NCBI GenBank assembly: GCA_020425695.1
Contig: JAGQRE010000004.1
Span: 17,469-76,415 of the forward strand
Reading direction: 5' to 3'
DNA: 58,947 bases
From: Planctomycetota bacterium
Lineage (GTDB): Bacteria; Planctomycetota; UBA8742; UBA2392
The notes below the pieces were generated by a model. It ran no database searches. It saw only the letters and a program-made list of their open reading frames with translations, and was not told the origin of the DNA. The stretch's first letter is position 1; each line of letters starts with the position of its first letter. Below are positions 7,130 through 48,561 of this stretch, piece by piece. A program made the translations under genes and the position numbers.

Positions 7130-7137
7130 CTGTTGCC

Positions 7138-9080: not shown

Positions 9081-9209
9081 ACTCACCCCAGACAGTTCCG
9101 CTTCGACGGGCAACCTGACACCTATTTAACGGACATGCTGCGCCTAAAGCCCGAATATTCAAGGGGTTGGGGTAAACCGCCGGGGCTTCGAAGGCCGCCG
9201 GCGATAAAC

Positions 9210-9836
9210 TCAGCGCGAGTACTTGCCCAAGGCGTCAGCAAACTTGAACGTTAGGGGGATTGGGTCCTGTTTGGCATCCCGACGTTTGTTGTTGATAGCC
9301 TCCGTCGCGTCCATCGCCAAACTCACGAACAACCACGGTGCTGTGCCTGAACGTGCACCCTCGGCGGCATCGACAGCGAACGAAATCTCGAATTTCTCGA
9401 AGTTTGCTCCACTACGCGCCCCATAGTTTTCGATGGTCTTGACCAAGTTTGCATGGACTGCTTTGTAGCGGGCCTTTTTCGCGGCAACCGCGGAACCGGA
9501 GTCAGTCGAGATAATCACCATCTCGTCGAGGCGTGTGAAACTGCCTTCAACAGGCACACGACCACGAGCGTCAATAGCGACTACAAAGCTGTTCGCGCTC
9601 AACTCCTGATTCCAAACACAGTAAATTGTGAGTTTCTCTTTGGGTGGGTATCGATCACTGTTGGGCCCTTCATCTGTAGGCAGGTCAACCAGGAACTTTC
9701 GTTCATCTGCCCGAAAGCGGGTGCAGAGTATGAAGAAGATTAGCAGTTGGAACGTCACGTCGATCATCGGCGTGAGGTCCGGTGTCGCGTTCTCGCGCGT
9801 TCGTTTTCGTTCAGTCTTGCGGCGTTGTGTTTGCAT
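9210..9836 (-). CDS. exbD: ExbD/TolR-family protein (third exbD paralogue)
   Basis: ExbD/TolR proteins sit in the inner membrane with ExbB/TolQ and couple proton flow to mechanical work in the periplasm. The 208-residue protein has a basic cytoplasmic start, then TPDLTPMIDVTFQLLIFF with the essential membrane Asp at residue 26, and a periplasmic domain of about 160 residues. That is longer than typical ExbD (about 140 in total). It is clearly a duplicate of the next upstream exbD (shared FILCTRF, AIDARGR, FAVDAAEGARSGTAPWLFVSLAMDA). The ATG at 9836 follows AGGAG. A terminator-like hairpin separates it from the upstream copy, so its expression may be lower or independent. Confidence 0.92.
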   Translation of the reverse strand: MQTQRRKTERKRTRENATPDLTPMIDVTFQLLIFFILCTRFRADERKFLVDLPTDEGPNSDRYPPKEKLTIYCVWNQELSANSFVVAIDARGRVPVEGSFTRLDEMVIISTDSGSAVAAKKARYKAVHANLVKTIENYGARSGANFEKFEISFAVDAAEGARSGTAPWLFVSLAMDATEAINNKRRDAKQDPIPLTFKFADALGKYSR

Positions 9837-9921
9837 GGCGAATCTCCTGTGCAGATTCGCCCCGGGATGGAACACCATTTAAACGTGCCGTCGCGATAAA
9901 GGATCAATGCAACAACGCAAA

Positions 9922-9943
9922 CGGGGCCTGCAAGCAGGCCCCG
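9922..9943 (-). terminator. Intrinsic terminator or attenuator between exbD paralogues
   Basis: A perfect GC-rich stem (CGGGGCCTGC and complement) with a tiny loop is followed on the minus strand by TTTGCGTTGTTGC. It lies between the second and third exbD, inside the same-strand run, so readthrough would be needed for downstream genes unless a separate promoter exists. Confidence 0.7.
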
Positions 9944-9966
9944 CTGAATGCCTTTGTCATTATCAG

Positions 9967-10587
9967 CTACTTCGAAAAGTTGCCCATTGAGTCAGCGAAC
10001 TTGAAGGTAACCGACAACGGTTTGAAGCCGTTGGCTTCGCGGTTCTGGTTGACCTTGGCAGACGCGTCAATGGCAAGGCTCACGAACATCCATGGCGCCG
10101 TGCCTGACTTCGCGCCTTCCATTGCGTTGACGGCGAATGAGATCTCCAGCTTCTCAATCCGGTCAACACCACTCTTGTTGATGTAGGCTTCCGTCGCGGC
10201 TACCAGGTTGTCGAAAATCTGGCCGTACAGGCGCTTCTTCTCAAGGATGGCACCGTTGCCGTCACTTGGGAAAATCACCAGTTGCTCAAGCGTCGAGTAA
10301 CTGTTTTCAACCGGTTTGCGACCACGTGCGTCGATTGCCACCATGTAGGTGTTCGCACCGGCAGCCGGGTCCCAGTTGCAGTAAATCGTGATCTGCTCCT
10401 TGGGAACTGAAGGCTGGCTTTGCAGACCCTCATCCTTCGGCAACTGCACCTGGTGATTGCGTTCTTCTACTTTGAACCGCGTGCACAGAATGAAGAAGAT
10501 CAGCAACTGGAATGTCACGTCGATCATCGGCGTGAGGTCCGGTGATGCCTTCTCGTCTGACTTGCGGGACTTGCGCTTCCTCGCCAT
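9967..10587 (-). CDS. exbD: ExbD/TolR-family protein (second exbD paralogue)
   Basis: A 206-residue ExbD/TolR protein with a Lys/Arg-rich N-terminus, SPDLTPMIDVTFQLLIFF (proton-path Asp at residue 23) and a single membrane helix ending in FILCTRF. The enlarged periplasmic domain is shared with the third paralogue: AIDARGRKPVENSYSTLEQL and FAVNAMEGAKSGTAPWMFVS. It starts 22 bases after the stop of the first exbD and is surely cotranscribed with exbB. An intact Asp argues for an active motor subunit. The paralogous pair could form a heterodimer. Confidence 0.93.
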   Translation of the reverse strand: MARKRKSRKSDEKASPDLTPMIDVTFQLLIFFILCTRFKVEERNHQVQLPKDEGLQSQPSVPKEQITIYCNWDPAAGANTYMVAIDARGRKPVENSYSTLEQLVIFPSDGNGAILEKKRLYGQIFDNLVAATEAYINKSGVDRIEKLEISFAVNAMEGAKSGTAPWMFVSLAIDASAKVNQNREANGFKPLSVTFKFADSMGNFSK

Positions 10588-10609
10588 GGATATCTCCGAC
10601 CAACCCGGT

Positions 10610-11119
10610 CTATTCGACCTTCTGGTCCTTCATGATTGCGATCTTGATCTTGTACATGCGGGCCTCAACCATGAGTTCAATGAGCTTGCCGAACTCACCG
10701 GCCGGGCAGCGCGCGTCACAGCGCACAAGAAGCATGTTTTCACTGATGCCGTCCGGACCACGACCGGGATACTCGATTTCCGGGTTCACGGTACTGGCCA
10801 CTGACTCAAGAATGCCCTTCATTTCATCGGCGCCGCGCGGTGTAGGCTCACCATAGCAGAACCAACCAAACTCGTCGGGCATGTCTTCACTGGCACCCTG
10901 GTTCACCGGCGCGATGTGCACGGTGAATATTTTCTTCGCGTTCGGGTCTTCTTCGTTAGCCGCGAGCGCATCCGGCAAGCGCAGACTGACGTTGTCCTGC
11001 GTCGTAATCTGCGTCACGACCATGAAGAAGATGATCAGCTGGAATGTCACGTCGATCATCGGGGTCATGTCGACCTCGGCGCCCTCAGTGACAGGAGCTT
11101 TCTTTCTGGACTTGGCCAT
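10610..11119 (-). CDS. exbD: ExbD/TolR-family protein (first exbD paralogue)
   Basis: A 169-residue ExbD/TolR protein immediately downstream of exbB. It has a basic start, VDMTPMIDVTFQLIIFFMVV with the membrane Asp at residue 23, and a periplasmic part unlike the other two copies. That part includes a loop with Cys residues (WFCYG, LLVRCDARCPAGEFGKLIEL) and ends in YKIKIAIMKDQKVE. The ATG at 11119 follows GGAG; an upstream in-frame ATG at 11158 lies in the intergenic hairpin and is rejected. Three ExbD genes beside one ExbB imply subunit specialisation. Confidence 0.93.
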   Translation of the reverse strand: MAKSRKKAPVTEGAEVDMTPMIDVTFQLIIFFMVVTQITTQDNVSLRLPDALAANEEDPNAKKIFTVHIAPVNQGASEDMPDEFGWFCYGEPTPRGADEMKGILESVASTVNPEIEYPGRGPDGISENMLLVRCDARCPAGEFGKLIELMVEARMYKIKIAIMKDQKVE

Positions 11120-11140
11120 TTTCTGTTTCTCCGAGCCATG

Positions 11141-11164
11141 CGGCGGGTGAACCATCACCCGCCG
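11141..11164 (-). other. Intercistronic hairpin between exbB and the first exbD
   Basis: CGGCGGGTG and its complement flank a six-base loop (9-bp stem), with no T tract. It could stabilise the exbB part of the mRNA and help set an ExbB excess over ExbD, which ExbBD complexes need. The role is inferred. Confidence 0.5.
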
Positions 11165-11176
11165 GTCTGCTGATAC

Positions 11177-11920
11177 TTACTGCTGTGCGGCGTAGGCGGC
11201 GATGGTCTCAACCATGTCGTCGCTGACGAGACCGATCGAGCTGCCGATCGACTGCACTTTGTTCTTGAAGTACCAGTAGAAGGTCAAACCCGGGATAGCG
11301 ATAACCAGGCCCAGAACCGTTGAAAGCAGCGCGAGCGCGATACCGCCGGCAACCATCTTCGGGTTCACCTGACCACCTGGAGCAGTTTCAATCTTGGCGA
11401 AAGCCATAACCATACCAGACACCGTGCCGAACAGACCCATCAGCGGACCCACCGAGGCGCACAGGGCGATCGGGCTGATGTGGAAGTCAAGCTTGCCCTG
11501 TTCGGCGTCGGACATCGAGATGGCTGCGTCCTTGACGCTTTCAGGGCCGAACTGCATGCGGTTCAGGGCCGCGCCGACCGTGCGGGTCAGGTAGTTCGGG
11601 GCGCTTTCACAGTACTGGAGCGCGCCTTCAAGATCGCCTTCGTCAATGTAGTTCTGAAGCGCGCCAATCACTTCCGGCGGCACGATCTTGTCGCGGCGAA
11701 CGTTCACGAAGCACTCGATGACCCAGCCGAACATGAAGACCGACACGAGGATAATCGCAAGCTGCGTAATGATACCGAACGCACCACCCGGAATACCGAG
11801 CAGCTTTTCACCGAGCGAGTAAGTGGCTTCTTCCTGGGCGAATACCGCAGGGGCCATCACCGCGCCGATTGCAAAAATAGTCACAGCAGCCACGGCCTTC
11901 TTGGATATCTGCAAGTTCAT
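11177..11920 (-). CDS. exbB: MotA/TolQ/ExbB proton channel protein with N-terminal signal peptide
   Basis: The stator-ring subunit of an ExbBD/TolQR-type proton-driven motor in the inner membrane. From the ATG at 11920 (good AGGAG) the 247-residue protein has a cleavable-looking signal peptide (1-27, ending VFA), then three membrane helices at about 52-73, 155-180 and 199-222. The ExbB core is in helices 2-3: ISPIALCASVGPLMGLFGTVSG and GGIALALLSTVLGLVIAIPG. The cytoplasmic loop holds an EGDLEGALQYCESAPNYLTR segment. It is followed by three exbD genes on the same strand and preceded by two repeat-protein genes, so the motor is probably dedicated to that cluster. Confidence 0.95.
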   Translation of the reverse strand: MNLQISKKAVAAVTIFAIGAVMAPAVFAQEEATYSLGEKLLGIPGGAFGIITQLAIILVSVFMFGWVIECFVNVRRDKIVPPEVIGALQNYIDEGDLEGALQYCESAPNYLTRTVGAALNRMQFGPESVKDAAISMSDAEQGKLDFHISPIALCASVGPLMGLFGTVSGMVMAFAKIETAPGGQVNPKMVAGGIALALLSTVLGLVIAIPGLTFYWYFKNKVQSIGSSIGLVSDDMVETIAAYAAQQ

Positions 11921-12070
11921 GTGGTTCTTCTCCTGCCCTGTACTGATCCGGCAAGTCCCGCCGTTCGGGGCTGCCGTCAAATGAGTTTGGATGAACAACT
12001 TCAACAAACGGGGGTTGGTTCAAATGGTTCATCAAAATGCGGAAATTGGCGAACCTCTTTGGGCCACAAA

Positions 12071-13399
12071 TCAGTCACCCTTGTATTTATTGACGATCTT
12101 CTGAATGCCCGGGATGCTTTCGTCGTCCGCAGCCTTCGTCTTCGGCAGCAGCGTCGTCAGCTCCGACAGGTATTTCTCTGACAACTTTGCGTAAATAGAG
12201 GCCTGTACAGGCTTGCCGCTGTTCGAGTCAGCAAGCTGGGCACAAGCGTTGGCGGCGCCAAGCAACGCCTTGCTACGGATTTCATCATCCGCATTGAACA
12301 GGGACAACGAGATCGTGAAGCTTTCGTAGGCCTCGGCCCAGTCGTCTGCGCGCTTTGCCTTAGCCGACTGCACCAGCCCCATGCCCACGAACGAGCCTGC
12401 GGTCAAATAGGCGAGGTCCTGGTCAATCCAGCCCTTCTTGGGCTGCCAGGGGCGACCGTCCTTCTTATGGTCTTTCGTCCAGTTCCGGGTTGCTTCAAAG
12501 AAACGCGACTGTGCGCCGGTGGCGTCACCTTCCAGAATCTGCATGAAACCGACCTTCAACTGCGCCTCATAGGAGGCACGTGAGGGACGCCCGGCATTCT
12601 TCTTCAAGGCCACACGGGCAAGGTCGTCATAGTTCTGGCGTGCGCCCTTGTAGTCCTTCTGGTCTTCAGCGTAACGGGCCGAAGCACGCAGAGCGCGGAG
12701 ACCCCAGTCAAAGTATTCCTTGTCGCCTGAGTTCGATGACAGAGTTTCCGTCAGGTCCTGCAACGGCTTGAATGCCTTTGTGTTAGCGCTGCCGGCATCA
12801 CCCTGCTTGAGGTAGGCCAACCCCAGCGCTTCCAGCGCGTCGAGGTAAAAGCGATTGAGCCCACCCGCGTTGTCGACCTTCTTGCCACTGACGCCGGAAG
12901 CAAAGGATGCACGCGGCACAACGTTTCTGTCCACGAGGTTATCAGCCTTTTCAGCTTCCTTGATGTACGCCTCAAGCCCACTGATGGCCGCGCCGTAGTC
13001 GGATTGCAGATACTGCCCCATGGCCGCGAAATACTGGCAGCTAAGCTGGACGCGCGCCCACTGGTCATCACCCCAACCGGACGGCTTCTCGCCGTTCATC
13101 ATGGCATTCGCATCGGCGATGAGTCGGTCACCACGTCCGCCGGCAAGCTTACGCGACAAGCCGTTGTACTCGTCCATGGCCTGGCCTGAGTAACGAACGT
13201 CATCCAGGTTCCACAGACGGACGTTAGTTCCGAAGCGATCACGCTCGGATTCCCAGATCACACCGGAAACAGTCTCGGCCTGGATGTCGTACGCCTGCAG
13301 TGATTGTCCGTCCTTGGTCTGGATCACACCGCCAGCCGCGGCGCTGAGTGCGCCGGCTAGCAGCAATGCGGTGGTCGAAGCCAGAATGATGTTTCTCAT
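12071..13399 (-). CDS. Secreted TPR-like repeat protein
   Basis: A 442-residue periplasmic protein with a clear signal peptide (MRNIILASTTALLLAGALSA). Next comes a short beta-rich segment, GGVIQTKDGQSLQAYDIQAE, of a type seen at the start of planctomycete repeat proteins. The rest is helical repeats, including AAISGLEAYIKEAEKADN, YLDALEALGLAYLKQGDAGSA and GARQNYDDLARVALKKN. TPR-like folds usually hold protein complexes together. The gene begins 25 bases after the 1353-residue TPR gene and precedes exbB by 150 bases, so it links the TPR and ExbBD parts. AAGGAG precedes the ATG. No enzymatic motif is seen. Confidence 0.85.
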   Translation of the reverse strand: MRNIILASTTALLLAGALSAAAGGVIQTKDGQSLQAYDIQAETVSGVIWESERDRFGTNVRLWNLDDVRYSGQAMDEYNGLSRKLAGGRGDRLIADANAMMNGEKPSGWGDDQWARVQLSCQYFAAMGQYLQSDYGAAISGLEAYIKEAEKADNLVDRNVVPRASFASGVSGKKVDNAGGLNRFYLDALEALGLAYLKQGDAGSANTKAFKPLQDLTETLSSNSGDKEYFDWGLRALRASARYAEDQKDYKGARQNYDDLARVALKKNAGRPSRASYEAQLKVGFMQILEGDATGAQSRFFEATRNWTKDHKKDGRPWQPKKGWIDQDLAYLTAGSFVGMGLVQSAKAKRADDWAEAYESFTISLSLFNADDEIRSKALLGAANACAQLADSNSGKPVQASIYAKLSEKYLSELTTLLPKTKAADDESIPGIQKIVNKYKGD

Positions 13400-13424
13400 G
13401 TCGTTCTCCTTGCCTGAGCCCCAT

Positions 13425-16400
13425 TTACTGGGTCTTCAGGGAGATTCCGTTCGATTTGCAAAGTTCGGCAATCTTCTTGCCGTAGCCCTTGAGGCGCTCA
13501 AGGTACTGCTTGATGTCCTCGGGCAGGTAGGTCTGGTCCAGACCGCCTTCTCGCATGGCCGCGTTGTACGCGTCCTGGAAGGTTCTCTGGGCGCCGTCAC
13601 CCTTGAGCTGTTCGATGCCCTTATCTTCCTTGCCGTAGGCCTCAATCCACTGGATCAGCACCTTCAACCAGTCCTCAAGGTTGCGGCGGAAGTCGCCGCG
13701 GAACTGATAGCGACCCAGCAGGGTGAACTGCACCCAGACCTTCAGGTGAATCTGCGATGCTTCCCACAGGTAGCCGGCCTTGTCGGTTGGGACGTCCTGT
13801 AGCGGGTTCTTGGGGTTCTTCTCAAGGGTCCGTGAGCTCTGGTCCACGTACTTCGGCCATTCGATTTTCACGTCGCCCGCGCGATGCAGCTCAAGGAAGA
13901 TCTCCGCCATGGCGTCACTGATGTACAGGTAGTTGTCTTCCAGTTCTTTCTGGAAGAGCAACGTGTAGGCGTCATTCATCTTCTTGTTGGTGTCACGCAG
14001 AAGGTTGAAGCTCCAGCAGCGGCGCATCATCAGCGCAGCCTTCTTCAACTTCTCGATGTCCTTGTCTTCCTTGTAGAGCTCAAGGTACGCCTTGCCGAGC
14101 TGATACTTGACCTCAAGCTCCGTGGCCGTGCCGGTCTTGCCGACGCGCTTGGTGCGTTGGTCAACGGGTACAGACTCTTCCTTGCCCCAGGCGCGGTCGC
14201 CGCCGAAGCGCTCAACGTAGCTGCTGAGGTACTTGACCGTGTTGTTCCAGTCCCGGATCTGGAAGAACTGGTTGCCGAGCAACAGCACCGACTTTTCTTC
14301 AAGGCCCTCGGGGCCGCCTTCACCACGGCGGACGCGATACTCTTCGTAGTACTTCAGCAGGCGTGTCGTATACGGACGGGCGCGCTCAAGCACGTCAGCG
14401 GCCTGGTTGTCCATGAACGTGCCAAACTCGTAGATGAAGATCGTACCGGTGAAGTATGCCAGCTCCTCGGATGCGATCGTGATGTAATTCTGCAGGTCCG
14501 AGTAAAGCTGGATCTTGGTGTTGTCCGCGTTCTCCTTCTTCACTTCCGCGTCGATCAGTCCCTTGAGTTTGTCGAGCAATTCATAGTCGCTAACGCCGGA
14601 AAGCGCCTTATCAAGGTCAGCCTTGATGGGCTTGAAGCTCTCCTTCTTCATCTGGGCGTTGTATTCCGAACGCACCGCCTTGCCCCAGCGCTTCGGGTAT
14701 TCTTCGGCGAGGGCATCCCACTTGGCTTTGATGGTGTCACGCAAGTCCGGCAGGTTTTCACGAACTTCCGTGTTCTTCTCGCCATCAAACAGCAACTCAA
14801 GAATCCAGCGCTGCCAGAAGTGCTCTGCGAGGATCATGCGTTTTTCGTGGGTCGACTTCGCCTCGGCGTGGCGTTTGGCATCTGCCGCCCACTCGTCGCT
14901 GTACTTGTCGTTGATGCGCTCGAAGGCGTTCTTCTTCAACTGGTTCGATCGTGAGATCAACACCGATGCCGCCTTGGCCATCGCGTTGGTCTTGGGTGTC
15001 AGCGTCTCGCGGAGGATTGCGTAGACGTTGCCGACCATGCGGCGGATTTCCTTGTCGTCGTCCGGGAATGCTTCGACGTATGCACGGTACACTTCTTCGC
15101 AGGCGTCACCGTCTTTGGCATCTGCCAGCGCGTAGAAGCTGAGGCGCAGTGCGCCCTTCTGGTACGCCTTACTGGTGGCCAGGTGTGCGCCGAACCACTT
15201 CCAGTATGGGCGCAGGATACCGAGCGCCAACGGACGCTCCTCGGCTTGCAACGCCTCCTGCGTCGCCTGCGGAAGCTTGCGTGGCGGGTTACGCAGGAGA
15301 TAGGCGAGTTCATAGGCCGCGTAGCCCATGCGCTTCATGTCTGCATCCGGCTCGCCTTCGCCGCTGGGGTTGTCGCGCATCCAGGCGGTGTTGCGCACCT
15401 GTGCGACCGCACCGATCGCGTCAGCCAATGTCGGGTTTTCGTTGCCTTCAAGCGCTTCCTTCACGCGGTCCCAGTCCTTCTGAGCCTCGAACAGGAAGTA
15501 CTTCTTGTAGTAGTAGACGGCCTTGTGCCAGTTCACAAGCTGGTCCGGCGTGTCACTTGCCAGGATCGCGTCCCAGTGCTTCTTGCCGACACTGCTGACC
15601 AGGGATGCCGGCAGGTCAGGCAGATCCGTCTCGTGGCGGGCGATCTGTCCCTGATACCAGTCCGGGTCTTCGATGTCCCACTTGTAGTTCTCTTTGTCGC
15701 TTTCGCCGCGACGGTTGTTGCGCGGGGCGTTCGCGTCGTCGGCCACGTTTGAATACGCTTTGGCACCCAGATACAGCGCCAACTGATAGCTGCGATAGCG
15801 GGCGGGCAGGTTCACCATTCGAACGGCAGCCTGGTGATACTTCTTTTCATCAAACAAGGTCTTGGCCGACTTGAAACCAAGGTCCATCCGCGCGGCGTCG
15901 CCAGCCAACATGGCCTTCAGTTCGTCAGCGCTTTCAGAAAGCTTCTTGTAGTAGCGGTTGTCGGGCTCGCCGTACTCGTCGTCGATCAGGAAGCTTGCGT
16001 GGCGCGCGAACTGGTTCGCCATCTCGCCCGGGAAGCCGTAAAGCGACTTGCCGTCGGTGATCTTTGAGCAACGCCCCTTCATGTGGGCCGGGACCTGGCT
16101 GTCTTCCGGGAACTTCTCCTGGAAGTAAATCGTGCGGTAGCTGCCCTCGCGATAAACCATCGCGGCGTCAAGGAAGCGCCACATACGCGAGTACATTTCA
16201 CCCATACGCACGAAACATGCCGGTGCGAACGTCTCGAAGGTCTTTACGTCGTCGCAGGCGACGATGAGCGACTGATATGCCTGGATGTTCTTGAGAATCA
16301 CAGACACGGGGTTGGTATCGAGTTCAGCGTAAACCGTGCCCGCACACTTGAAGCGCAGTTCATTGTCGAGGTTGTCACGTGTAGCAATATCGGCCAGCAC

Positions 16401-17486
16401 GACCAGCGCCTGACGGCGGAAGTTGATGTCACGGTCACCGGCAAGTCGGAAAAGCAGGTCGATAGCGCCTTTGATCTGTGTTTCGTCGCCAAGCTTGATC
16501 AGTGCACTGATTCGATAAAGCTGGAAGCGCTTGAAGTAAAACTCAAGCCCGGCAGTGCTGCCGTACTTGGCGTATGCTTCTGAGTACAACTCAACGCACT
16601 TTTCGAGATTCTTGGGCTCAAAGTCGAGTTCCGTGGTCAGGAGCTCAGCGGCGCGCAGGTAGCCGTGCTCAAGGGCAAGACGCCCGATGTATTCAGTCGC
16701 GCCTTCACCGGACAGGAAGCTCACGCAACCTGTGAAGTGCGAAACGGCTGAATCCGGACGCCCGCGGGCGATCTCAATGTCGCCCTGTAGCGGGTAGGTC
16801 AGGACTTGCTCTTCGGTCGGGTAGTCGAGGCTGAACAGGAATTCGCCGATCCACTTTTCGCACTCTTTGAACTTGGCCTCACGGTCCATCGAGCCCAGTT
16901 CATAGGTCATGCCCTTCACGTAGAATGCGCGGCAGTAGTTGTAGAAAATCTTGCTGTAGTTCGGGTATTCCTTCTTGAACAGTTCCTCACCCGCGCCGCC
17001 GTCGAAGCGCTTGTCGTCAAGCTCGCGGCGCTTCTTGTCGAACATGGCGATGGCATCATCGCAGAACTTGCGTGAGGCTTCCGGGTCACCGCGGCGCAAG
17101 GCCATGGCGAGATCAAGCATCATCACACCCTTCGACACAATGCCGCCCGGCGTGTCAGGGTCGCCGAAGATCTTAACGGCATCGCCGTAGCGACGGTTAC
17201 GTGCAGTGTCGTCCTGGTCCTTGGCGAAGATGAAGTCCGCCTCCGCCTTCATGACCTCGGCCTTGCTGGCCCTTGCACGGGCTTTCTCCGAGGCTGAGCC
17301 GTTGTCGATGATCTTGTCGAGAACAGCGTAGGATTCTTCCCACATCTGTAGTCGGACACCGAGGTAACGGCCGAACTCAACATCATCGCGCGCCTGCAAT
17401 GTTGCAGGTGCAAGTGACATCACCATCGCGATCAGCAACCCGGCAATCAATCGCGGCATCGTTATCAAGCTAGTTGTCTTGGGCAT
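13425..17486 (-). CDS. Giant secreted TPR-repeat protein
   Basis: A 1353-residue protein starting at the ATG at 17486: MPKTTSLITMPRLIAGLLIA leads a signal peptide ending near ATLQA. The mature part is almost wholly helical repeat, with TPR-like units scattered along it (for example ALVVLADIATRDNLD, AAVRMVNLPARYRSYQLALY, LGNQFFQIRDWNNTVKYLSS, VKYQLGKAYLELYKEDKD) and long Lys/Glu-rich helices. No catalytic motif is visible. Such proteins act as periplasmic scaffolds. It lies between the secretin gene and the second TPR gene/exbB. A candidate promoter is 70-100 bases upstream, and a strong terminator closes the secretin unit before it, so it may head its own operon running into exbBD. Longer starts to 17630 are rejected. 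Confidence 0.88.
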   Translation of the reverse strand: MPKTTSLITMPRLIAGLLIAMVMSLAPATLQARDDVEFGRYLGVRLQMWEESYAVLDKIIDNGSASEKARARASKAEVMKAEADFIFAKDQDDTARNRRYGDAVKIFGDPDTPGGIVSKGVMMLDLAMALRRGDPEASRKFCDDAIAMFDKKRRELDDKRFDGGAGEELFKKEYPNYSKIFYNYCRAFYVKGMTYELGSMDREAKFKECEKWIGEFLFSLDYPTEEQVLTYPLQGDIEIARGRPDSAVSHFTGCVSFLSGEGATEYIGRLALEHGYLRAAELLTTELDFEPKNLEKCVELYSEAYAKYGSTAGLEFYFKRFQLYRISALIKLGDETQIKGAIDLLFRLAGDRDINFRRQALVVLADIATRDNLDNELRFKCAGTVYAELDTNPVSVILKNIQAYQSLIVACDDVKTFETFAPACFVRMGEMYSRMWRFLDAAMVYREGSYRTIYFQEKFPEDSQVPAHMKGRCSKITDGKSLYGFPGEMANQFARHASFLIDDEYGEPDNRYYKKLSESADELKAMLAGDAARMDLGFKSAKTLFDEKKYHQAAVRMVNLPARYRSYQLALYLGAKAYSNVADDANAPRNNRRGESDKENYKWDIEDPDWYQGQIARHETDLPDLPASLVSSVGKKHWDAILASDTPDQLVNWHKAVYYYKKYFLFEAQKDWDRVKEALEGNENPTLADAIGAVAQVRNTAWMRDNPSGEGEPDADMKRMGYAAYELAYLLRNPPRKLPQATQEALQAEERPLALGILRPYWKWFGAHLATSKAYQKGALRLSFYALADAKDGDACEEVYRAYVEAFPDDDKEIRRMVGNVYAILRETLTPKTNAMAKAASVLISRSNQLKKNAFERINDKYSDEWAADAKRHAEAKSTHEKRMILAEHFWQRWILELLFDGEKNTEVRENLPDLRDTIKAKWDALAEEYPKRWGKAVRSEYNAQMKKESFKPIKADLDKALSGVSDYELLDKLKGLIDAEVKKENADNTKIQLYSDLQNYITIASEELAYFTGTIFIYEFGTFMDNQAADVLERARPYTTRLLKYYEEYRVRRGEGGPEGLEEKSVLLLGNQFFQIRDWNNTVKYLSSYVERFGGDRAWGKEESVPVDQRTKRVGKTGTATELEVKYQLGKAYLELYKEDKDIEKLKKAALMMRRCWSFNLLRDTNKKMNDAYTLLFQKELEDNYLYISDAMAEIFLELHRAGDVKIEWPKYVDQSSRTLEKNPKNPLQDVPTDKAGYLWEASQIHLKVWVQFTLLGRYQFRGDFRRNLEDWLKVLIQWIEAYGKEDKGIEQLKGDGAQRTFQDAYNAAMREGGLDQTYLPEDIKQYLERLKGYGKKIAELCKSNGISLKTQ

Positions 17487-17555
17487 ATCCACCTTGCTCC
17501 GCTGTGACCCCCGGAGACGGAAATAGTATGTGCAGGTGCGTATGAGGGACGCACT

Positions 17556-17584
17556 TCTATACCAACTGCAAACGTCTGAGTTAA
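17556..17584 (-). promoter_or_regulatory. Candidate promoter for the TPR-exbBD unit
   Basis: On the minus strand TTAACT (17579-17584) and TATAGA (17556-17561) are spaced by 17 bases, about 65 bases before the TPR gene start. Each box matches the consensus at four of six positions. Confidence 0.35.
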
Positions 17585-17669
17585 GGCGAGGGTTCATTTC
17601 TTTTGTGCCCTGAGACGGGCCAAAAATCAAGCCCTCACGGCATTCCGGTTAGCGTTTGGTTAAACGAAA

Positions 17670-17693
17670 ACGGGGCGGCAAGTGCCGCCCCGT
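17670..17693 (-). terminator. Intrinsic terminator after the secretin gene
   Basis: ACGGGGCGGC and its complement form a 10-bp stem with a four-base loop, followed on the minus strand by TTTCGTTTAACC, about 17 bases past the secretin stop. Confidence 0.85.
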
Positions 17694-17709
17694 CGTGATA
17701 CTCGTCGCC

Positions 17710-20397
17710 TTAGCGAGGGCTGGTGGGACCCGCGCCGTAGCGATAGTCCTCTTCCTCTTCAAGGTCGATGATTCTTGCGCTGACCACCACGATGATGTCC
17801 TGGCGCACAACGCTCTTGCCGCGGCGCGTGAACAGGGCTCCGATGAGTGGCAGGTCGCTGATAAGCGGGATACCCGATTCAACTTGGGTTTCCGACATCT
17901 GGCGCAGACCACCGATGACAAAGCTGCCGCCGTCCGGCACGGTAACCGTGGTACGAACGCGCTGCAGGGTCAACTGCGGGGTCTGAATCGCGACCGGCGT
18001 ACCCACGCCAAGCGACGTAGTGAAGGTCGGGATCGGACGCAGCAGCACCGCCAGCGTCGGACGCAGTTCAAGCGTGATGTAGCGGCGGTCAGCACTGATC
18101 GTTGGGCGCACATCAAGCACGATACCGTCGCGGATCACGTCCACGATCGGGTCGGCTACAGCAACACCCGTTGAAATGTTGGTGTCGAAGTCGCGGATGT
18201 AGGCGATTTCGTTCAGCACGCTGACGTGGCCGCGCTGGGTATTGTGAACCGTGATACGCGGGGCCGTCAGCAGTGTCGCACGCTCACGCTTGCGAACCGC
18301 ACGCAGGATTGCGTTCACTTCCGGGTTGTCCACGAAGGCCAACTGGAAGGTCGCACCACCCTGGTTTGTCAGGCCTACGCCGCCACGCTGTCCGCCAAGT
18401 GACTGGTCAAACAGGTTCTCGACGCGGGCGCGCTGATCGATACGAACGTTGCCCGACGGCGGCATATCCTGGAAGAAGAAGCCGGCATCGTTACCGGTAC
18501 CAGCGCCGGCAGGATTGCTGTTGTTGCCGAACTGGATGTCGTCAAGGGCCGCCGGTACGGGCGGAATGCCCGGCGCCGGAATCTGCGGGCTACCGCCGAT
18601 TCCACGGAAGTCGAGACCAATGTCTTCAAGGAAGTCGTCACGAATCGTGATGAAGCGCGCTTCCACGGAGACAGTCAGACCCTGGCTGCGACGCAGGTCC
18701 TGCAACAGGTTCGACACGCGGTCGATGTTGTCAGGGCTGTTCAGAACAATCAGGTCCTGCTGGCGATAGGTGATGCCGTGCCCGTCGAGGTCCCAGCTGC
18801 TGACGTCGATGGCTTCTTCAATCACTTCAACCAGGTCTTCGATCTCAAGCGGATCAGCTTCGTCTTCGTCTTCTTCAGGCGGGAGACGCCCGGCTGATTC
18901 GGTGTCACCGGCGAGGCGAGGCTCGTCGCCACGGAAGGTGCGCAGGTTGATCAGAAGGTCAGCCACGTTGAAGACGCGACGGACGACGTTGCGTCCTTCG
19001 CCTGCGTCGGCTTCGTCAATGATGACCGCACCGTTTTCAACGCGCCATGAAAGGTCACGCTGGTCGCAAACCAGGTCAAGCGCCTGGCGCAGCTTCACAC
19101 GACCAAGCTCAAGGTCCACTTCCTGTTCGCCGTCAACGCCGCGGGCACGCAGGATGTTGATACGACCCTCAGTGCGGAACTTGGCAATCACGTCATCAAG
19201 CGGTGTCGCTTCGAAGTAGAGCGGCAGGTTCACCGACTCAAGCGCGCTGCGGACCGAGATGTCTTCCTTGGAAAGCGGCGTGCGGCGTGAATCCTCAAGC
19301 TCGCGGGCGCGGCGGTTGGTTTCAATCCAATCCTCGTACGAAGCAAGCATGATGTCTTCGGTCGGGATCGGCGTTGAAGCCTCAACCAGCTTCATCGTCT
19401 CTTTCCAGTTACGATTGAAGTCTTCCCAAGCGTTGCGGTCGCGCTGGCCTTGGTCAAGGTTCGTCGCGATCTGCTTGAGGCGTGCGACCTGCTCGTTGTA
19501 CGGGTCTTCGCGCAGAATCTTGTTCAGCACGACGACAGCGTCTTTGTACTCACGGCGGTCGAAGTACTCCTTGGCCGTTTCATACAGGTTGCGAACTTCT
19601 TCACGATAGCGGTCAAGTTCCTGCTGGATTTCCATCTCGCGGATGCGGCGTTCCTGCTCACGGATCTTGACGAAGTCGTCAAGGCGGGCTTTCTCGCGCA
19701 TCTGCTCAGACTGCTGGATCATCAGGCGTGCTTCACGCTCGAAACCTTCGGTCTCGATCATGTAGTCAGTCCAGCGAATGATATCGAGAACCTTCTCGGC
19801 TTCCGCGATGGCTTCCGAATACTTGCCTTCGCGAATGAGCTTGTCAGCGACATCCAGACCGTGGCTGATTTCGTACACGGCCTCGGCGCGCATCGCGGAT
19901 TCTTCTTCGCTGCGTGCGCGGGCCATGTTTTCGCCGGGGCTGCGCTGCACACCCAAGGCCTGCTCAACGTTTGCCTTGACTTCAGACGCGATGGCATTGC
20001 CCGGGTCCATCAGCAATGAGTCGCGTGCGAAATCAAGCGCGTCGTCGTAGCGCTTGTCCTGATACAGGCGCGCTGCTTCGTTGGCATAGTACTGCGCCAG
20101 CGCCTTCAGGTCCTTGTCATTGACACCCTCAGTGGCGTTGCGTGTGGCGTTTTCGCCGCGGCTGGCAACTTCTCTGGGTTGACCGGCATCGGCGCTGTTA
20201 CTGCCTTCTGCGCTTTCACGTCGCTCGGCGCGTGACGGCGTGTCGCCATCTTTGCTGAGCTGTGAAACGTAATCGTCCGTTGTCGGATTTACCGGGGTAT
20301 CATCCACGGTAACCGCGCTGGACGCGCAAGCAGTAAGAAACCCCGTGATACCGACTATGGCGGCTATTCCTAGGCGCCTGGTGAACGCAAACTTCAT
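17710..20397 (-). CDS. Secretin lipoprotein (PilQ/GspD-type outer-membrane pore)
   Basis: Secretins form large gated rings in the outer membrane for pili or type II secretion. The 895-residue protein starts at 20397 after GAGGAG with a lipoprotein signal (lipobox LTAC, Cys24). It continues with a TPR-like/coiled-coil N-terminal half (about 100-370) rich in Arg/Glu. An STN/N0-like module follows (LPLYFEATPLDDVIAKF, about 385-400), then an N1-like domain (LIVLNSPDNIDRVSNLLQDL). The C-terminal secretin domain has VSVEARFITIRDDFLEDIGL, LLTAPRITVHNTQRG, PDGGSFVIGGL and the signature GIPLISDLPLIGALF. It follows the PilM/N, PilO and EF-hand genes, with its own promoter and terminator. Confidence 0.95.
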   Translation of the reverse strand: MKFAFTRRLGIAAIVGITGFLTACASSAVTVDDTPVNPTTDDYVSQLSKDGDTPSRAERRESAEGSNSADAGQPREVASRGENATRNATEGVNDKDLKALAQYYANEAARLYQDKRYDDALDFARDSLLMDPGNAIASEVKANVEQALGVQRSPGENMARARSEEESAMRAEAVYEISHGLDVADKLIREGKYSEAIAEAEKVLDIIRWTDYMIETEGFEREARLMIQQSEQMREKARLDDFVKIREQERRIREMEIQQELDRYREEVRNLYETAKEYFDRREYKDAVVVLNKILREDPYNEQVARLKQIATNLDQGQRDRNAWEDFNRNWKETMKLVEASTPIPTEDIMLASYEDWIETNRRARELEDSRRTPLSKEDISVRSALESVNLPLYFEATPLDDVIAKFRTEGRINILRARGVDGEQEVDLELGRVKLRQALDLVCDQRDLSWRVENGAVIIDEADAGEGRNVVRRVFNVADLLINLRTFRGDEPRLAGDTESAGRLPPEEDEDEADPLEIEDLVEVIEEAIDVSSWDLDGHGITYRQQDLIVLNSPDNIDRVSNLLQDLRRSQGLTVSVEARFITIRDDFLEDIGLDFRGIGGSPQIPAPGIPPVPAALDDIQFGNNSNPAGAGTGNDAGFFFQDMPPSGNVRIDQRARVENLFDQSLGGQRGGVGLTNQGGATFQLAFVDNPEVNAILRAVRKRERATLLTAPRITVHNTQRGHVSVLNEIAYIRDFDTNISTGVAVADPIVDVIRDGIVLDVRPTISADRRYITLELRPTLAVLLRPIPTFTTSLGVGTPVAIQTPQLTLQRVRTTVTVPDGGSFVIGGLRQMSETQVESGIPLISDLPLIGALFTRRGKSVVRQDIIVVVSARIIDLEEEEDYRYGAGPTSPR

Positions 20398-20476
20398 ACT
20401 TACTCGCTCCTCATCCATCGGGGAAAACCCGGGGGACGATGCGTAGGGGTCCACACGAATAACGGAGGGGGCCTTC

Positions 20477-20504
20477 AATGTAGCCGCAGTACGCCTTGTG
20501 TCAA
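20477..20504 (-). promoter_or_regulatory. Candidate sigma70-type promoter for the secretin gene
   Basis: On the minus strand a perfect TTGACA (20499-20504) is followed after 16 bases by TACATT (20477-20482), about 75 bases upstream of the secretin ATG. A strong terminator lies just upstream, which makes a separate promoter necessary. Confidence 0.55.
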
Positions 20505-20589
20505 CGCTCTTGCCAAGTCCAGCTGTCACGCTTGCGTCATGTTGGAATGATGGATTTTAGGTGTGTCAGGAAGTCACCACCTAACCAGC

Positions 20590-20622
20590 AAAAATGGGGC
20601 AGGCACCGAAGCACCTGCCCCA
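20590..20622 (-). terminator. Strong intrinsic terminator with UUCG loop
   Basis: On the minus strand TGGGGCAGG pairs with its complement, extended by G-U pairs around a TTCG tetraloop, and is followed by TTTTT. It closes the pilMN-pilO-like-EF-hand unit before the secretin gene. Confidence 0.88.
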
Positions 20623-20639
20623 CCGTTAGAACTTGCTTA

Positions 20640-22604
20640 CTAGTCCTTGAAAATCGTGCCAAACAGGTCAACAGTTGTGCCGCCTACTGTGACATTTCGA
20701 TCTTTGAGACCTTCATATTCACCTGCCGCCAGATCAACGGTCTGATCTGCAAACTTCTTCAGATCGCTCGACTTGAGCTCTTTGCCTGTGGCGTCGAACA
20801 CTTTGACGTCGTTGCCCGGGCTGCCGAGGTTTATGGTGCCGCCGACGTCCTTGCCCTTGCCCACGTTGACGGTCATGACAACGCGCAGCCAGTCTTCACC
20901 GACCTTGTGCCAGCGTGTCAGTTCAATGCGCGCTTCCTTGCCGCCGTTTTTGACGGTGAGGCAGCGAACCTCAAGCGCATTGTCACTCGTCGATGGCTGA
21001 GTCGGGTTGGTGATGGCGCCGCGAGTGGCCGTCGGCAGCTCAAAGTCGCCGTGCTCACGTGAGTTCAACACGAAGCCGCCGGCCCGGGTGACAAAGTTAA
21101 AACCGGTCGTGAAGTCGATCTCTGTGTCTTCAGGCAGCAATTCGGCGGCGTTGAGGGCGGTGTCGCTGACGTCAAACATTTCCACGTCGCGGTCCTTCAG
21201 CGCCATCATGTTGTACTTGCCACCCAGAGAATCCTGCGGGCTGATTTTCTCGGTGACCCGAACTTTGTACCAGACTGGATTGCCTTCGGCGTCCGGCACC
21301 GGATGCCACTTGGTCAGGCTGATGCTGACGTCATCGCCAGAGACACCGCCTGCACTCATGACGATGCGGTTGGTGACAATCACCGGGTGACCGGAAGCCA
21401 ACGTGCGCTCAGGCCATGTGTAGTAGCCAGCCGCATTCTGGTCGCCGACGTTCACGCCGCGTTTCGGGTTCTTCGTCGTCGCCATGTAGACGGCATATGT
21501 GTAAGTGACGTCTGTATCGAACGAGGTGTCACGATACTCATTGCCGGTTATGGGACTCTCGGTGACAGTTTCCCAGTCGCCGGCCTGTTCGGGTGCTTGG
21601 GGCTTCAGATCGTCAGTGGCTTCCTGGAACTTCTTCTGCGCTTTGTTCTTGTTGGGTTCGACCTGCTTGTTCGTTTTTTCGGCGTTTGCATCAGAAGGTG
21701 AAGTCCACCAGCTATCAAAACGTGCTTCCCACTCAAGCAGGCGCTTGTTGTAGTCCTGAACTTTCCGGCGGTATTCAGCCTTACGCTTCTCCACCGTCTC
21801 CGGTGCTCGGCGCACGATATAGAAGCTGATGTCTTCAGGCAGGTCGGCAACGGCCGGGTTTTCCCAGGTCACGATGATTTCCATCTGCGCCGGGTCCACC
21901 TTGGCCTGCACGTTTACGACCGGCCCAAGGTCACGCTCTTCACGCGGCTCGTAGCGGCGCTCGAACTCTTCAAAGCTGACTTTGTCGTCGTAGGGGTAGC
22001 GGTCCCAATCACGGACCTGTTGAGCTGTGATTTCGCCCTCGGTCAGAAACTCACCGCCATCTGTATTGGTGTTGAGTTCGTCAAACTGTTCGCGGTTGTC
22101 GCGCGGTGGATCGTCGTACTCTTCGCGACTGATCTGGCCATCACTGTTGCGATCCCAGTTTTTGAACTCACCACGCAAATTCGGCTGCCCCCAGATAGGG
22201 GTCTGCTGAAACTCATTTTCCGTCCAGACGCCGTCTTTAGGGGCGATGTCGTACTCGTCGAACTCGTCGCCTTTGGCGTCGTCCATGGTGACGACCCACT
22301 TGATTGGCAGTTCCAGCAACTTGCCTGCGCCGGCCGGTGGGTTCCAGTTGTTGGCCTCACCGGGTGTCATGGCGGCTGCCACGGAATCCGGCAGCGGGAT
22401 CGTATCGGTCTCACCGCCGGCCGACGGGTCGTCGAGTTGCTTGCGCACTTTCTCAACGCTGGTCTGAAGCTGGGTCTGACCTTCGCCCAATTCGTTGGTC
22501 ACGATCGCAATGGCAATGAACACGATCGCGAGCAAGACGCCAAGAAGCGGCGCCCCGATCGGGCCGTACTGTGCCAAAGCATTAGGTTTCTTTTCGTTTG
22601 CCAT
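20640..22604 (-). CDS. Membrane-anchored protein with EF-hand-like and fibronectin III-like regions, in the pilP position
   Basis: A 654-residue protein with one N-terminal membrane helix (about 15-37), so the bulk is periplasmic. It has a canonical Ca-loop DRNSDGQISREE (about 150-165) and a second less perfect acidic loop (DRYPYDDKVSFEE). A fibronectin-III-like fold (VTWENPAVADLPEDISFYIVRR ... YRDTSFDTDVTYTYAVYM) is interrupted by a Lys/Glu-rich helical insert, and two similar beta-rich C-terminal repeats follow (VSISLTKWHPV and ARIELTRWHKV). The gene lies exactly where pilP would be expected, between the pilO-like gene and the secretin, but I see no PilP similarity. Calcium binding and a bridging role are inferred. 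Confidence 0.83.
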   Translation of the reverse strand: MANEKKPNALAQYGPIGAPLLGVLLAIVFIAIAIVTNELGEGQTQLQTSVEKVRKQLDDPSAGGETDTIPLPDSVAAAMTPGEANNWNPPAGAGKLLELPIKWVVTMDDAKGDEFDEYDIAPKDGVWTENEFQQTPIWGQPNLRGEFKNWDRNSDGQISREEYDDPPRDNREQFDELNTNTDGGEFLTEGEITAQQVRDWDRYPYDDKVSFEEFERRYEPREERDLGPVVNVQAKVDPAQMEIIVTWENPAVADLPEDISFYIVRRAPETVEKRKAEYRRKVQDYNKRLLEWEARFDSWWTSPSDANAEKTNKQVEPNKNKAQKKFQEATDDLKPQAPEQAGDWETVTESPITGNEYRDTSFDTDVTYTYAVYMATTKNPKRGVNVGDQNAAGYYTWPERTLASGHPVIVTNRIVMSAGGVSGDDVSISLTKWHPVPDAEGNPVWYKVRVTEKISPQDSLGGKYNMMALKDRDVEMFDVSDTALNAAELLPEDTEIDFTTGFNFVTRAGGFVLNSREHGDFELPTATRGAITNPTQPSTSDNALEVRCLTVKNGGKEARIELTRWHKVGEDWLRVVMTVNVGKGKDVGGTINLGSPGNDVKVFDATGKELKSSDLKKFADQTVDLAAGEYEGLKDRNVTVGGTTVDLFGTIFKD

Positions 22605-22679
22605 AATCTGTAGCCTTCCTTCGGGAAGGGGTCACCGGGGTTTCTACGCTTGAAGTTACGCTCTCCTCCGGTACCTCTG

Positions 22680-23765: not shown

Positions 23766-23812
23766 AGTCGTTCCTGCCAGTCGTTTCGTGCCGCCAATTT
23801 GCGTGAGACTGC

Positions 23813-25870
23813 CTACTCCGTGGCTTCTTCTTCTTCACCGCTACTTGGGGCCTGAACGGGCGTGAGTGTCAGGGTTACGCTGATTTCCGAGACACCAAAC
23901 TCGGCTTCGTTCAATTCGCGTGAAGCTTTCGGCGGACGCCCGTTGACGGTCATGCCAACGTTCGTGCCGACGATTTCAGCGAGTGTGATCTTGCCCTTGT
24001 TGGTGTACTGGGTGTTCGAAATCTGGTTGATGGCGATCGTCAGGTGGTCATCAAAGTTGATTTTAGCGAGGGCCTTCTCGTCCAGGTCCTTTAGCTGGCC
24101 GGTCGCACGCAACTCCTCAATCAGTGCGGCGCGCAGTTGTTCAACGAGCATGCCCTTCTTCTTGTCGCCCAGCTTGCCGCTGAGTGCTTCGTGGGCTGCG
24201 TTCTCGTCGATAGAACTGGTGAGCCTCGATGCCACCCAGACACGGAAGGTGTACGTGCGCTTGTTGGTATAGTGACCGCCTTCGCCTTCTTCGGCACCGA
24301 CCCAGGCCGGCTCTTCCTTGGCTTCAAGCAAAGAAGCTGTGCGCTGAAGCAGCCCACCGTTCAGACCCTGTACCGTAAAATTGGCGTAGTAAATCTTCGT
24401 GCGCGGATCGCCACCGGCATACTTCGCGAGTGCATCGATGGTTGTACGTGAGATCAACGCTCCAGCCTCATCGGCCCGCATGGTCAGTTCGGTATCCTGC
24501 GGCGGCGGCGCGTCTTCGTCGTCTTCATCGCTCGGCTTGGCGGCAGGCAGGCTGCCAACTACGCCCGAAGCAACGTTCATGAGCGAGTAGGCCTTCTCGA
24601 CGTCTTCCTGCGCGGGCTGCAGCGCCGACACTTCCTTGTTGCGCTTGTCGGCCGTGCTGGCAAGGCTGCCCGCCTGTTCAATCACGGTGTCCACGCCGGC
24701 CGTCGAGAAGATCGCCATCAGCAGCGCAATCAACCCACCGACAGCGGCAATGGCGCCACCCGCGTAGAAGGGCACCTGCATCTTGGCGACGCCCTGACGC
24801 TCAATGTACTCAGGTGGAATCAGGTTGATCGTGTTGACTTCGTCCAGCCCGAGCCCCTGCAGCGAAAGACCGATCGCCACGGTGAGGCTCTGGATGTTGT
24901 TCTGGACTTCCGTCGGGTCAACGCTGCGCGCCAGCGCAATGCGAACCGGCGTATCCACCTTGTGGACCTGATACTGCAACTGTTGCTCAAAGAACTTCTT
25001 GATGTTCAGCAGCTTGCTGCCGTTGCCCATCATGACGAGCTGGTTGATGTTCGCGTCGTCGTGCTGGCTCTTGTAGAAGCCCACGGCGCGGTAGATTTCA
25101 CCGACCATGTCCTTCAGTGGCGGCTTCATGGCTTCGAAGACCGCGGCGGCGTCTTTGCTCTTGTGGGCGCGGCGCTTGAGTTTTTCTGCGTCGTCTGCTG
25201 CAAGCTTGAATCGCGCCCGCAGGGCTTTGGTAATGTCATTGCCGGCGACCGGCACCACGCGCACGTATGTCTTCTGGCCATCCAGAATGATGACGTCGGT
25301 GTTTTCGGCACCGATGTCGATGGCGACGCATGAATCACTTACGGCGTCGTCCATCTCATACTTGATGTAGTTGTAGATACCGAGCGGCGCCACCTGCACG
25401 CCGGTGATCTGCAAGCCCGCCATGTCACAGATATCGACGAGTTCATCGACGACGTCTTTCTTGGCGGCGTACAGGTTCACACGCAGTTCATCAGGGTCTT
25501 GATCATCAATGATCTGGAAGTCCCAGACGGCGTCTTCAAGCTTGATTGGAATCTGTGAGCGGGCTTCGTTCTCAATCGTCTCGCGCACGCGTTCTTTGGG
25601 AACGGGCGGGAGGCTGATGATTCGACCAAGGGTATTCTGGCCGGAGATCGAGACGAAAACTTCTTCGCCCTTCTTGATGCCCTTGCTTGAGCGCAACTCA
25701 TTGAGCGCACCGGCCGTGGCGTCCTGGATGGTGGTACCCGCGCCCAAACCGAATTCAGCCAGCGAGATGATCGCGACGTCTTCAAGGGAGACGCCCCCGC
25801 GATCACCGCCAAGCTTCACGGCCTTGACGCTGGATGTACCGAGCTCGATGCCCCATGCGGTCTTTGCCAT
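23813..25870 (-). CDS. pilM: PilM-PilN fusion protein of the type IV pilus/secretin platform
   Basis: PilM is an actin-like cytoplasmic ATP-binding protein that grips the N-terminal tail of PilN. The 685-residue protein starts MAKTAWGIELGTSSVKAVKL (phosphate-1 loop), with AIDIGAENTDVIILDG (about 184-198), GNDITKALRARF and MMGNGSKLLNIKKFF completing the PilM fold. The PilN tail motif is then joined in frame as INLIPPEY (about 348-355), followed by a membrane helix (about 368-390) and a periplasmic domain of about 290 residues. Ordinarily these are two proteins held by the INLLP-type motif. GAGG precedes the ATG at 25870. An extension to 25912 is rejected. Confidence 0.93.
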   Translation of the reverse strand: MAKTAWGIELGTSSVKAVKLGGDRGGVSLEDVAIISLAEFGLGAGTTIQDATAGALNELRSSKGIKKGEEVFVSISGQNTLGRIISLPPVPKERVRETIENEARSQIPIKLEDAVWDFQIIDDQDPDELRVNLYAAKKDVVDELVDICDMAGLQITGVQVAPLGIYNYIKYEMDDAVSDSCVAIDIGAENTDVIILDGQKTYVRVVPVAGNDITKALRARFKLAADDAEKLKRRAHKSKDAAAVFEAMKPPLKDMVGEIYRAVGFYKSQHDDANINQLVMMGNGSKLLNIKKFFEQQLQYQVHKVDTPVRIALARSVDPTEVQNNIQSLTVAIGLSLQGLGLDEVNTINLIPPEYIERQGVAKMQVPFYAGGAIAAVGGLIALLMAIFSTAGVDTVIEQAGSLASTADKRNKEVSALQPAQEDVEKAYSLMNVASGVVGSLPAAKPSDEDDEDAPPPQDTELTMRADEAGALISRTTIDALAKYAGGDPRTKIYYANFTVQGLNGGLLQRTASLLEAKEEPAWVGAEEGEGGHYTNKRTYTFRVWVASRLTSSIDENAAHEALSGKLGDKKKGMLVEQLRAALIEELRATGQLKDLDEKALAKINFDDHLTIAINQISNTQYTNKGKITLAEIVGTNVGMTVNGRPPKASRELNEAEFGVSEISVTLTLTPVQAPSSGEEEEATE

Positions 25871-25897
25871 ACAATCCTCGAAACAATGGCGATGGCC

Positions 25898-25914
25898 GAT
25901 TGGCAGAACCAATC
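25898..25914 (-). other. Short hairpin in the pilMN leader
   Basis: GATTGG and CCAATC flank a five-base loop about 30 bases before the pilMN start. The 170-base spacer 25871-26039 otherwise shows only a TTGACC box (25986-25991) without a convincing -10. Confidence 0.3.
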
Positions 25915-27023: not shown

Positions 27024-27044
27024 GGATTCACAGCCCCAAACTGG

Positions 27045-27509
27045 CTATTCGCCGGGTACGTCGCTGATGGCGCTGCCATCCAGTTTCGACATCTTCGCGA
27101 CGCGACCTGTATGACGACCGCCGTCGAACTCTGTAGCGATGAACACGGCAAGACTCTGCTTGACGACGTCGATACCCATTGAGCGACTTCCGAAGCAGAT
27201 CACGTTGGCATCATTGTGACGCCGCGCCATCTCGGCCTCCCACGAGTTGTGAGCAACAACCGCCCGACAGCCGGAGATTTTGTTTGCACTCATAGCCATG
27301 CCGATGCCGGACCCGCACACCAGCACGACACGATGCACCGACTTGTCCGCGACCCGGGCGCACGCACGGGCAGCAAAATCCGGGTAATCTACGCGATCGG
27401 CGGAAAACGGCCCCAGGTCATCGACCTGATTGCCGCTCTCTCTGAGAAATGCGACCAGCTCGTTTTTCATGTCAAAGGCGGCGTGGTCTGCGGCAATAGC
27501 AATTTTCAT
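27045..27509 (-). CDS. rpiB: Ribose-5-phosphate isomerase B
   Basis: Interconverts ribose-5-phosphate and ribulose-5-phosphate in the pentose phosphate pathway. The 154-residue protein matches RpiB over its length: AIAADHAAF at the N-terminus (Asp8, His9), the DYPDFA block, the catalytic Cys65 and phosphate-binding loop in VLVCGSGIGMAM, and AVVAHNSWEAEMARRHNDANV. The ATG overlaps the TsaC-YwlE stop by four bases (ATGA), so translation is coupled. The order tsaC-ywlE-rpiB matches the Bacillus subtilis ywlC-ywlE-ywlF order. Confidence 0.95.
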   Translation of the reverse strand: MKIAIAADHAAFDMKNELVAFLRESGNQVDDLGPFSADRVDYPDFAARACARVADKSVHRVVLVCGSGIGMAMSANKISGCRAVVAHNSWEAEMARRHNDANVICFGSRSMGIDVVKQSLAVFIATEFDGGRHTGRVAKMSKLDGSAISDVPGE

Positions 27510-28591: not shown

Positions 28592-28592
28592 G

Positions 28593-32061: not shown

Positions 32062-32070
32062 GGTGCCTCC

Positions 32071-48559: not shown

Positions 48560-48561
48560 AA

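Follow-up and report, generated by a model that had tools for sequence, protein, structure and literature searches.

Within a 58,947-nucleotide stretch of a planctomycete genome (Planctomycetota bacterium, lineage UBA8742; UBA2392; assembly GCA_020425695.1, contig JAGQRE010000004.1, positions 17,469 to 76,415; hereafter, the window), we studied a cluster in which the genes of a pilus-like secretin platform are followed by those of large tetratricopeptide repeat (TPR) proteins and of an ExbB-ExbD motor. On balance, we favor the view that the cluster encodes one envelope-spanning machine, with the platform coupled to the ExbBD proton motor. Re-calling and translation of the open reading frames (ORFs) gave 11, all on the minus strand, for a PilM-N fusion, a PilO-like protein, an EF-hand/FN3 protein, a secretin, a giant and a small TPR protein, ExbB, ExbD1 to ExbD3, and a YdjY lipoprotein; their families, assigned by profile search, follow the order proposed from the bare sequence in an earlier reading (the original prediction). 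The 1353 residues reported there for the giant TPR protein correspond to a start at the ATG at 17486, and the interval given, 9210 to 25870, holds for the other ten genes but leaves the YdjY gene (8232 to 9113) outside. As had also been noted, none of the cluster genes encodes PilB, PilT, PilC, or a pilin.

Because the same gene order recurs across the phylum, an envelope-spanning machine is probably present in these bacteria. The genomes compared were mostly metagenome assemblies, that of the window being 88.7% complete. In 15/16 genomes of the window's family, the order secretin, giant TPR, small TPR, ExbB was intact (in the remaining genome, G005, ExbB is truncated by a contig end), and the giant TPR protein was found in all 16, which represent six genera. 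The PilMN-PilO-EF block was located upstream of the secretin in all family genomes except G007, which has it on a different contig, and G010, where a contig end cuts the block. At the other end, YdjY came after the ExbD genes wherever the sequence extended that far.

Outside the family, the order is also conserved, in at least nine planctomycete families altogether. A long PilM-N fusion was present in most of the 196 planctomycete genomes sampled, and 20-kb windows around 40 PilM-N genes often had a secretin 4 to 6 kb downstream. These 20-kb windows stopped slightly short of where ExbB would be expected, so their lack of ExbB is misleading, and a linkage confined to the window's family was ruled out by genome-wide ExbB coordinates. 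Direct searching of 30 genomes outside the family, selected according to PilM score and length of contig, gave nine, representing eight other families, in which ExbB is encoded 9.6 to 11.3 kb downstream of PilM and on its strand (G024, G030, G031, G034, G055, G079, G107, G157, and G167). Chance alone predicts ca. 0.22 genomes with ExbB at any position in the 15 kb downstream of PilM (Poisson P of about 3e-12, shared ancestry ignored). In 9/9 of these genomes, the gene after the secretin had at least ca. 940 to 1,260 codons, and the next one, where the sequence reaches, ca. 360 to 400; Pfam TPRs were detected in most of these post-secretin genes. In two further genomes (G020 and G147), in which ExbB was not placed, a giant and then a small TPR gene come after the secretin. 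The search of planctomycete gene order suggested in the original prediction thus found secretin and ExbB linked within the family and PilMN, secretin, and ExbB linked beyond it, and this linkage, together with the low chance expectation, supports the claim that the two halves belong together.

Profile comparisons connect the TPR genes of different families as well. The profile of the giant TPR protein was homologous to that of the giant gene which other families carry 3' of the secretin (hhalign 99.7%, 586 columns), and the small TPR profile to the small TPR gene (hhalign 98.9%, E value of 1.3e-17); TPR repeats inflate such scores, although the small TPR match also covers the non-TPR N-terminal domain. 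A sequence search of the PDB with the giant TPR protein gave no match.

In the motor half, ExbB was the single PF01618 match in the window's genome assembly, and in 9/16 family genomes (the window's included) the ExbB gene of this locus was the sole member of the MotA/ExbB family. Thr195 and Thr230 of ExbB were invariant in 14 sequences, and the transmembrane Asp of ExbD was retained, in an IDV/IDC motif, in the family ExbD set (the ORF of one ExbD1, L040, is gapped). These are the residues expected of a proton-conducting 5:2 motor of the ExbB/TolQ/MotA kind (transmembrane Asp in ExbD, transmembrane Thr in ExbB), and, judged by sequence, the motor residues are intact.

In the platform half, the PilM domain scored 147.8 bits against TIGR01175 (cutoff, 133), and its best family was NF045709, that of Akkermansia muciniphila Amuc_1101, with 198.5 bits, below the equivalog cutoff of 650. 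Because its profile aligns to the PilM-PilN fusion structure 5eou and the motif NTINLIPPEY, after the PilM domain, resembles the INLxP-type motif of PilN, we consider PilM and PilN to be fused; M15 of PilMN was invariant in the alignment. The PilO-like protein (361 amino acids) had no match in a sequence search of the PDB, and its AlphaFold model (mean predicted local distance difference test score [pLDDT], 66.9) matched with confidence only Amuc_1100 (6laf, 6kny, and 6lad; probability of 1.00 and E value of about 1e-3; next match, probability of 0.02). The model thus indicates an Amuc_1100-fold protein next to PilM, the arrangement that marks the Amuc_1098-1102 type. As a separate observation, the transmembrane helix of the PilO-like protein opens with an invariant Leu-His-Phe (His9) in 12/12 family sequences, which is absent in the order-mate G016. 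We considered this His as a coupling residue of the TonB/TolA kind and rejected it: its depth in the helix does not fit, no other part of the motif accompanies it, G016 lacks it, and it is not general among ExbB-linked loci.

Of the label EF-hand/FN3 given to the third protein, the FN3 part is supported by the AlphaFold model (pLDDT, 80.9), which matches FN3 tandems, while the EF-hand match was weak in Pfam (E value of 0.02) but DxNxDG-type loops are present in the sequence. The secretin scored 111.8 bits against the Amuc_1098 family (cutoff, 750) and only 84 bits against the GspD profile (cutoff, 351), and hence does not qualify as a type II secretion GspD; its lipobox Cys68 was invariant, with 61 to 80% identity across the window's family. 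Going by the structure matches of the PilO-like model, the first half is probably a platform of the Amuc_1098-1102 kind. A second Amuc_1098-like secretin (918 amino acids; L068, G000:C177:2942-5140), downstream of a carboxypeptidase-regulatory/PDZ protein, is encoded in the genome, and most family genomes have such a gene, with neither PilM nor ExbB beside it.

In the proposed machine, PilM-N would sit at the inner membrane; the periplasm would contain the PilO-like and EF-hand/FN3 proteins, and the gate at the outer membrane would be the lipidated, TPR-bearing secretin. The ExbB-ExbD proton motor would be joined to this platform through the giant and small periplasmic TPR proteins, and proton flow through it would probably do mechanical work on the secretin/TPR assembly, in the form of gating, remodeling, or fiber dynamics. 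By analogy with other organisms, the purpose could most plausibly be to take up or handle bulky polymers from outside the cell, or possibly fiber dynamics. Gene content, homologies, the conserved order, and the intact motor residues are observations, whereas physical coupling, the use of proton flow, direction, and substrate are inferred.

A claim in the original prediction that found no support is that of ExbBD as the only power source. The check for pilB and pilT elsewhere in the genome, which it had recommended, found a PilT outside the cluster (TIGR01420, 438 bits, above the cutoff) as well as several PilB-type ATPases, so that the platform could be ATP driven, and the absence of PilB at the locus is no proof of a PilB-independent platform. 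We regard as rather unlikely the stronger proposal of a phylum-wide, PilB/PilT-independent machine, with a secretin platform driven by ExbBD proton flow via giant TPRs, that pulls large polymers through the outer membrane.

The same ATPases are among several observations that weigh against a single machine, in favor of two separate systems, or both. Two such systems would be a PilMN-PilO-secretin pilus platform powered by remote PilB/PilT and a TPR-ExbBD-YdjY motor for Tol-like envelope maintenance, kept as neighbors for coregulation. First, in the order-mate G016, PilMN-PilO-EF, the secretin, the TPR pair, and ExbB-ExbD×3 are at four unlinked sites, three of them with other genes directly adjoining, and in G007, PilMN-PilO-EF is unlinked from the secretin part. 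Separation of the parts in relatives, named in the original prediction as the finding that would speak against it, is thus borne out in part, by these two genomes. Second, PilMN-secretin occurs without ExbB nearby in G044, G064, G069, G121, G127, and G199, and several families had PilMN with neither secretin nor ExbB inside the 20-kb window. Given G016 and these genomes with PilMN-secretin or PilMN alone, the linkage is widespread but not universal. Third, no TonB/TolA-like transducer was identified within the cluster, and the three ExbD genes could serve other partners. Finally, the downstream gene 7138 and MIPS (myo-inositol-1-phosphate synthase) also stay attached, indicating that the linkage is not limited to machine parts. 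The class-mate G018 had the giant-small TPR pair at one contig end (L047, C230) and ExbB-ExbD-ExbD at another (L081, C7), which could be one locus split by assembly.

Terminator-like hairpins also separate the halves. A scan of twelve gene ends across family genomes found only three junctions where hairpins are frequent, namely those that follow the EF-hand gene (13/15), the secretin (15/16), and ExbD2 (15/15), with 0 to 3 matches at each other end; stem sequences varied between genomes while pairing was preserved. Similar hairpins in the window were also found 3' of some other genes at apparent unit ends. Because of the hairpins at these junctions, the cluster is probably not one simple operon but, as predicted from sequence for this family, four units: PilMN-PilO-EF; secretin; TPR-TPR-ExbB-ExbD1-ExbD2; and ExbD3-YdjY onward. 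One unit boundary coincides with the break point in G007, and boundaries also fall at the G016 breaks. Equally possible is read-through with attenuation (e.g., giving excess secretin) instead of unit ends; the hairpins may set protein ratios, with the secretin isolated as its own unit. Outside the family, the secretin-TPR gap was 0 to 117 bp, mostly without a hairpin.

Against two separate systems stand the order shared by nine families, in which secretin and ExbB have an unusual giant TPR gene between them, and a second canonical PilM elsewhere in the genome, which scored better than that of the cluster and could serve an ATP-driven pilus. A true GspD is also encoded elsewhere (C281, 359 bits). 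As for the Tol-like part, TolB_N was detected in 0/16 family genomes, with control genomes positive, which speaks against a Tol-Pal reading of ExbBD. We consider two systems possible but somewhat doubtful.

A third explanation, which we judge improbable, is that ExbBD is the general energizer of the cell, chiefly for TonB and its receptor, with no special role beside the platform. Most family genomes have TonB and a TonB receptor, encoded on contigs other than that of the locus and usually without their own ExbB (G002, G003, G008, G009, G012, and G013), so that the ExbBD of the locus may also serve TonB. However, in genus g2, no TonB or plug matches were found (including two 94%-complete genomes) and the ExbBD locus is retained at the same place; therefore, TonB cannot be its sole client. 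Moreover, G004 and G007 have a separate ExbB beside TonB-receptor genes, and the motor of the locus is flanked by TPR genes, no TonB or plug-domain receptor being found within the cluster. A pairing of these exbBD genes with TonB receptors was rejected on these grounds, in agreement with the original prediction, the receptors being on other contigs or undetected. Lastly, persistence of the order through ordinary chromosome synteny, with no functional coupling, is hardly credible: the family flanks (Sua5, RpiB, DUF6687, and MIPS) are also conserved in many genomes, but the block persists in G007, G013, and G015, which have lost the upstream flank (in the latter two, rearrangement upstream of PilMN has left the segment from PilMN to MIPS intact), and the order is common to eight distant families despite low protein identity. 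The original interpretation is supported in part, namely in the linkage of the halves, the intact motor residues, and the lack of TonB-receptor pairing, but not in an exclusive dependence on ExbBD.

Features of the cluster in the window, listed in the direction of transcription
Feature	Position	Strand	Remarks
PilM-PilN fusion	23813..25912	-	Conserved start ATG at 25870; cytoplasmic PilM ATPase-like domain, one transmembrane segment, periplasmic domain
PilO-like protein, Amuc_1100 fold, N-terminal transmembrane helix	22680..23765	-	AlphaFold model and PDB structure matches
EF-hand/FN3-like periplasmic protein, membrane anchored	20640..22604	-	Position of PilP/Amuc_1099; weak EF-hand matches and model
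Terminator-like hairpin, EF-hand gene/secretin junction	20595..20622	-	13/15 family genomes
Secretin lipoprotein with N-terminal TPRs, Amuc_1098-like	17710..20529	-	PF00263, 98.6 bits; TPR; STN
Terminator-like hairpin, secretin/giant TPR junction	17669..17694	-	11-bp stem, T-rich tail; 15/16 family genomes
Giant periplasmic TPR protein, signal peptide	13425..17630	-	TPR_14; 1353 amino acids counted from ATG 17486
Small TPR protein, N-terminal beta domain	12071..13399	-	Homologous to small TPR gene of other families
ExbB/TolQ-type motor subunit	11177..12007	-	PF01618, 85.8 bits
ExbD1, D-M-T-P-M-I-D motif	10610..11158	-	PF02472, 55.9 bits; transmembrane Asp retained
ExbD2, long periplasmic domain	9967..10587	-	PF02472, 43 bits; transmembrane Asp retained
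Terminator-like hairpin, ExbD2/ExbD3 junction	9920..9945	-	15/15 family genomes
ExbD3, paralogue of ExbD2	9210..9878	-	PF02472, 38.2 bits
YdjY-domain lipoprotein	8232..9113	-	NF040466, 76.8 bits (cutoff, 50)

Downstream of YdjY, window positions 5948 to 8232 encode MIPS and a 364-amino-acid protein with N-terminal membrane helices, both of which are still attached in G007, G013, and G015, where the upstream flank is gone. On the other side, a DUF6687 gene is located just upstream of PilMN, and genes for CDP-alcohol phosphatidyltransferase and phosphatidylserine decarboxylase at 26040 to 33466 may, together with MIPS, form a phospholipid neighborhood. Further upstream (45233 to 54348) there is a MoxR AAA/DUF58/BatA-VWA/large VWA cluster, that is, a Bat-type envelope operon.

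These results bear on the uptake of very large polymers by planctomycetes and on the power source of the secretin-based "pili" of the Planctomycetes-Verrucomicrobia-Chlamydiae (PVC) group. By linking a proton motor, via giant TPRs, to a secretin platform of the Amuc_1100 type, the conserved order offers a concrete candidate machine, with a short gene list, one mutable motor residue, and scorable phenotypes (fibers, dextran or mucin uptake). Searches of open-access papers gave no account of the combined locus, nor one in which the parts and power source of such a machine are described together. Pili-like fibers from crater structures of planctomycetes bind dextran (PMC5394234), and mucin accumulation by Akkermansia reportedly needs pili genes and periplasmic complexes (PMC12418764); the window locus was the subject of neither study.

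Among known systems, the type IVa pilus (PilMNOPQ) shares PilM, PilN, a PilO-like protein, and a secretin, but the cluster differs from it in having no PilB, PilC, PilT, or pilin (PilC and pilins were not searched genome-wide), a fused PilM-PilN, and a lipidated, TPR-bearing secretin. In the Myxococcus AglRQS-Glt gliding machine, as in the window, there is one TolQ-like subunit with at least two TolR-like ones, which act across the envelope together with exported TPR proteins (PMC3169522); as described, that machine has no secretin or PilM/N/O, and the resemblance is architectural only, Glt-specific proteins not having been searched here. Also similar is the TPR-TolQ-TolR-TolR cluster of PVC genomes, of uncharacterized role, with heterologous TolR-like genes and often followed by a vWA transducer (PMC12204202). 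The small TPR gene followed by ExbB and three ExbD genes has the TPR-TolQ-TolR arrangement, but instead of an adjoining vWA, the window has a third ExbD, YdjY, the 364-amino-acid protein without vWA, and MIPS, and its module is linked upstream to a secretin platform, "secretin" not being mentioned in PMC12204202. For the platform half, the known counterpart is Amuc_1098-1102. The window proteins score far below the curated NCBIfam equivalog cutoffs, and, compared with that cluster (Akkermansia was not searched for ExbBD beside Amuc_1098), the window adds the giant and small TPR proteins, ExbB, three ExbD proteins, and YdjY. Both have a PilM-like fusion, an Amuc_1100-fold protein (in the window, as modeled), a further envelope protein, and a TPR-bearing secretin, in the same order by locus tag and with no pilus ATPase in the cluster.

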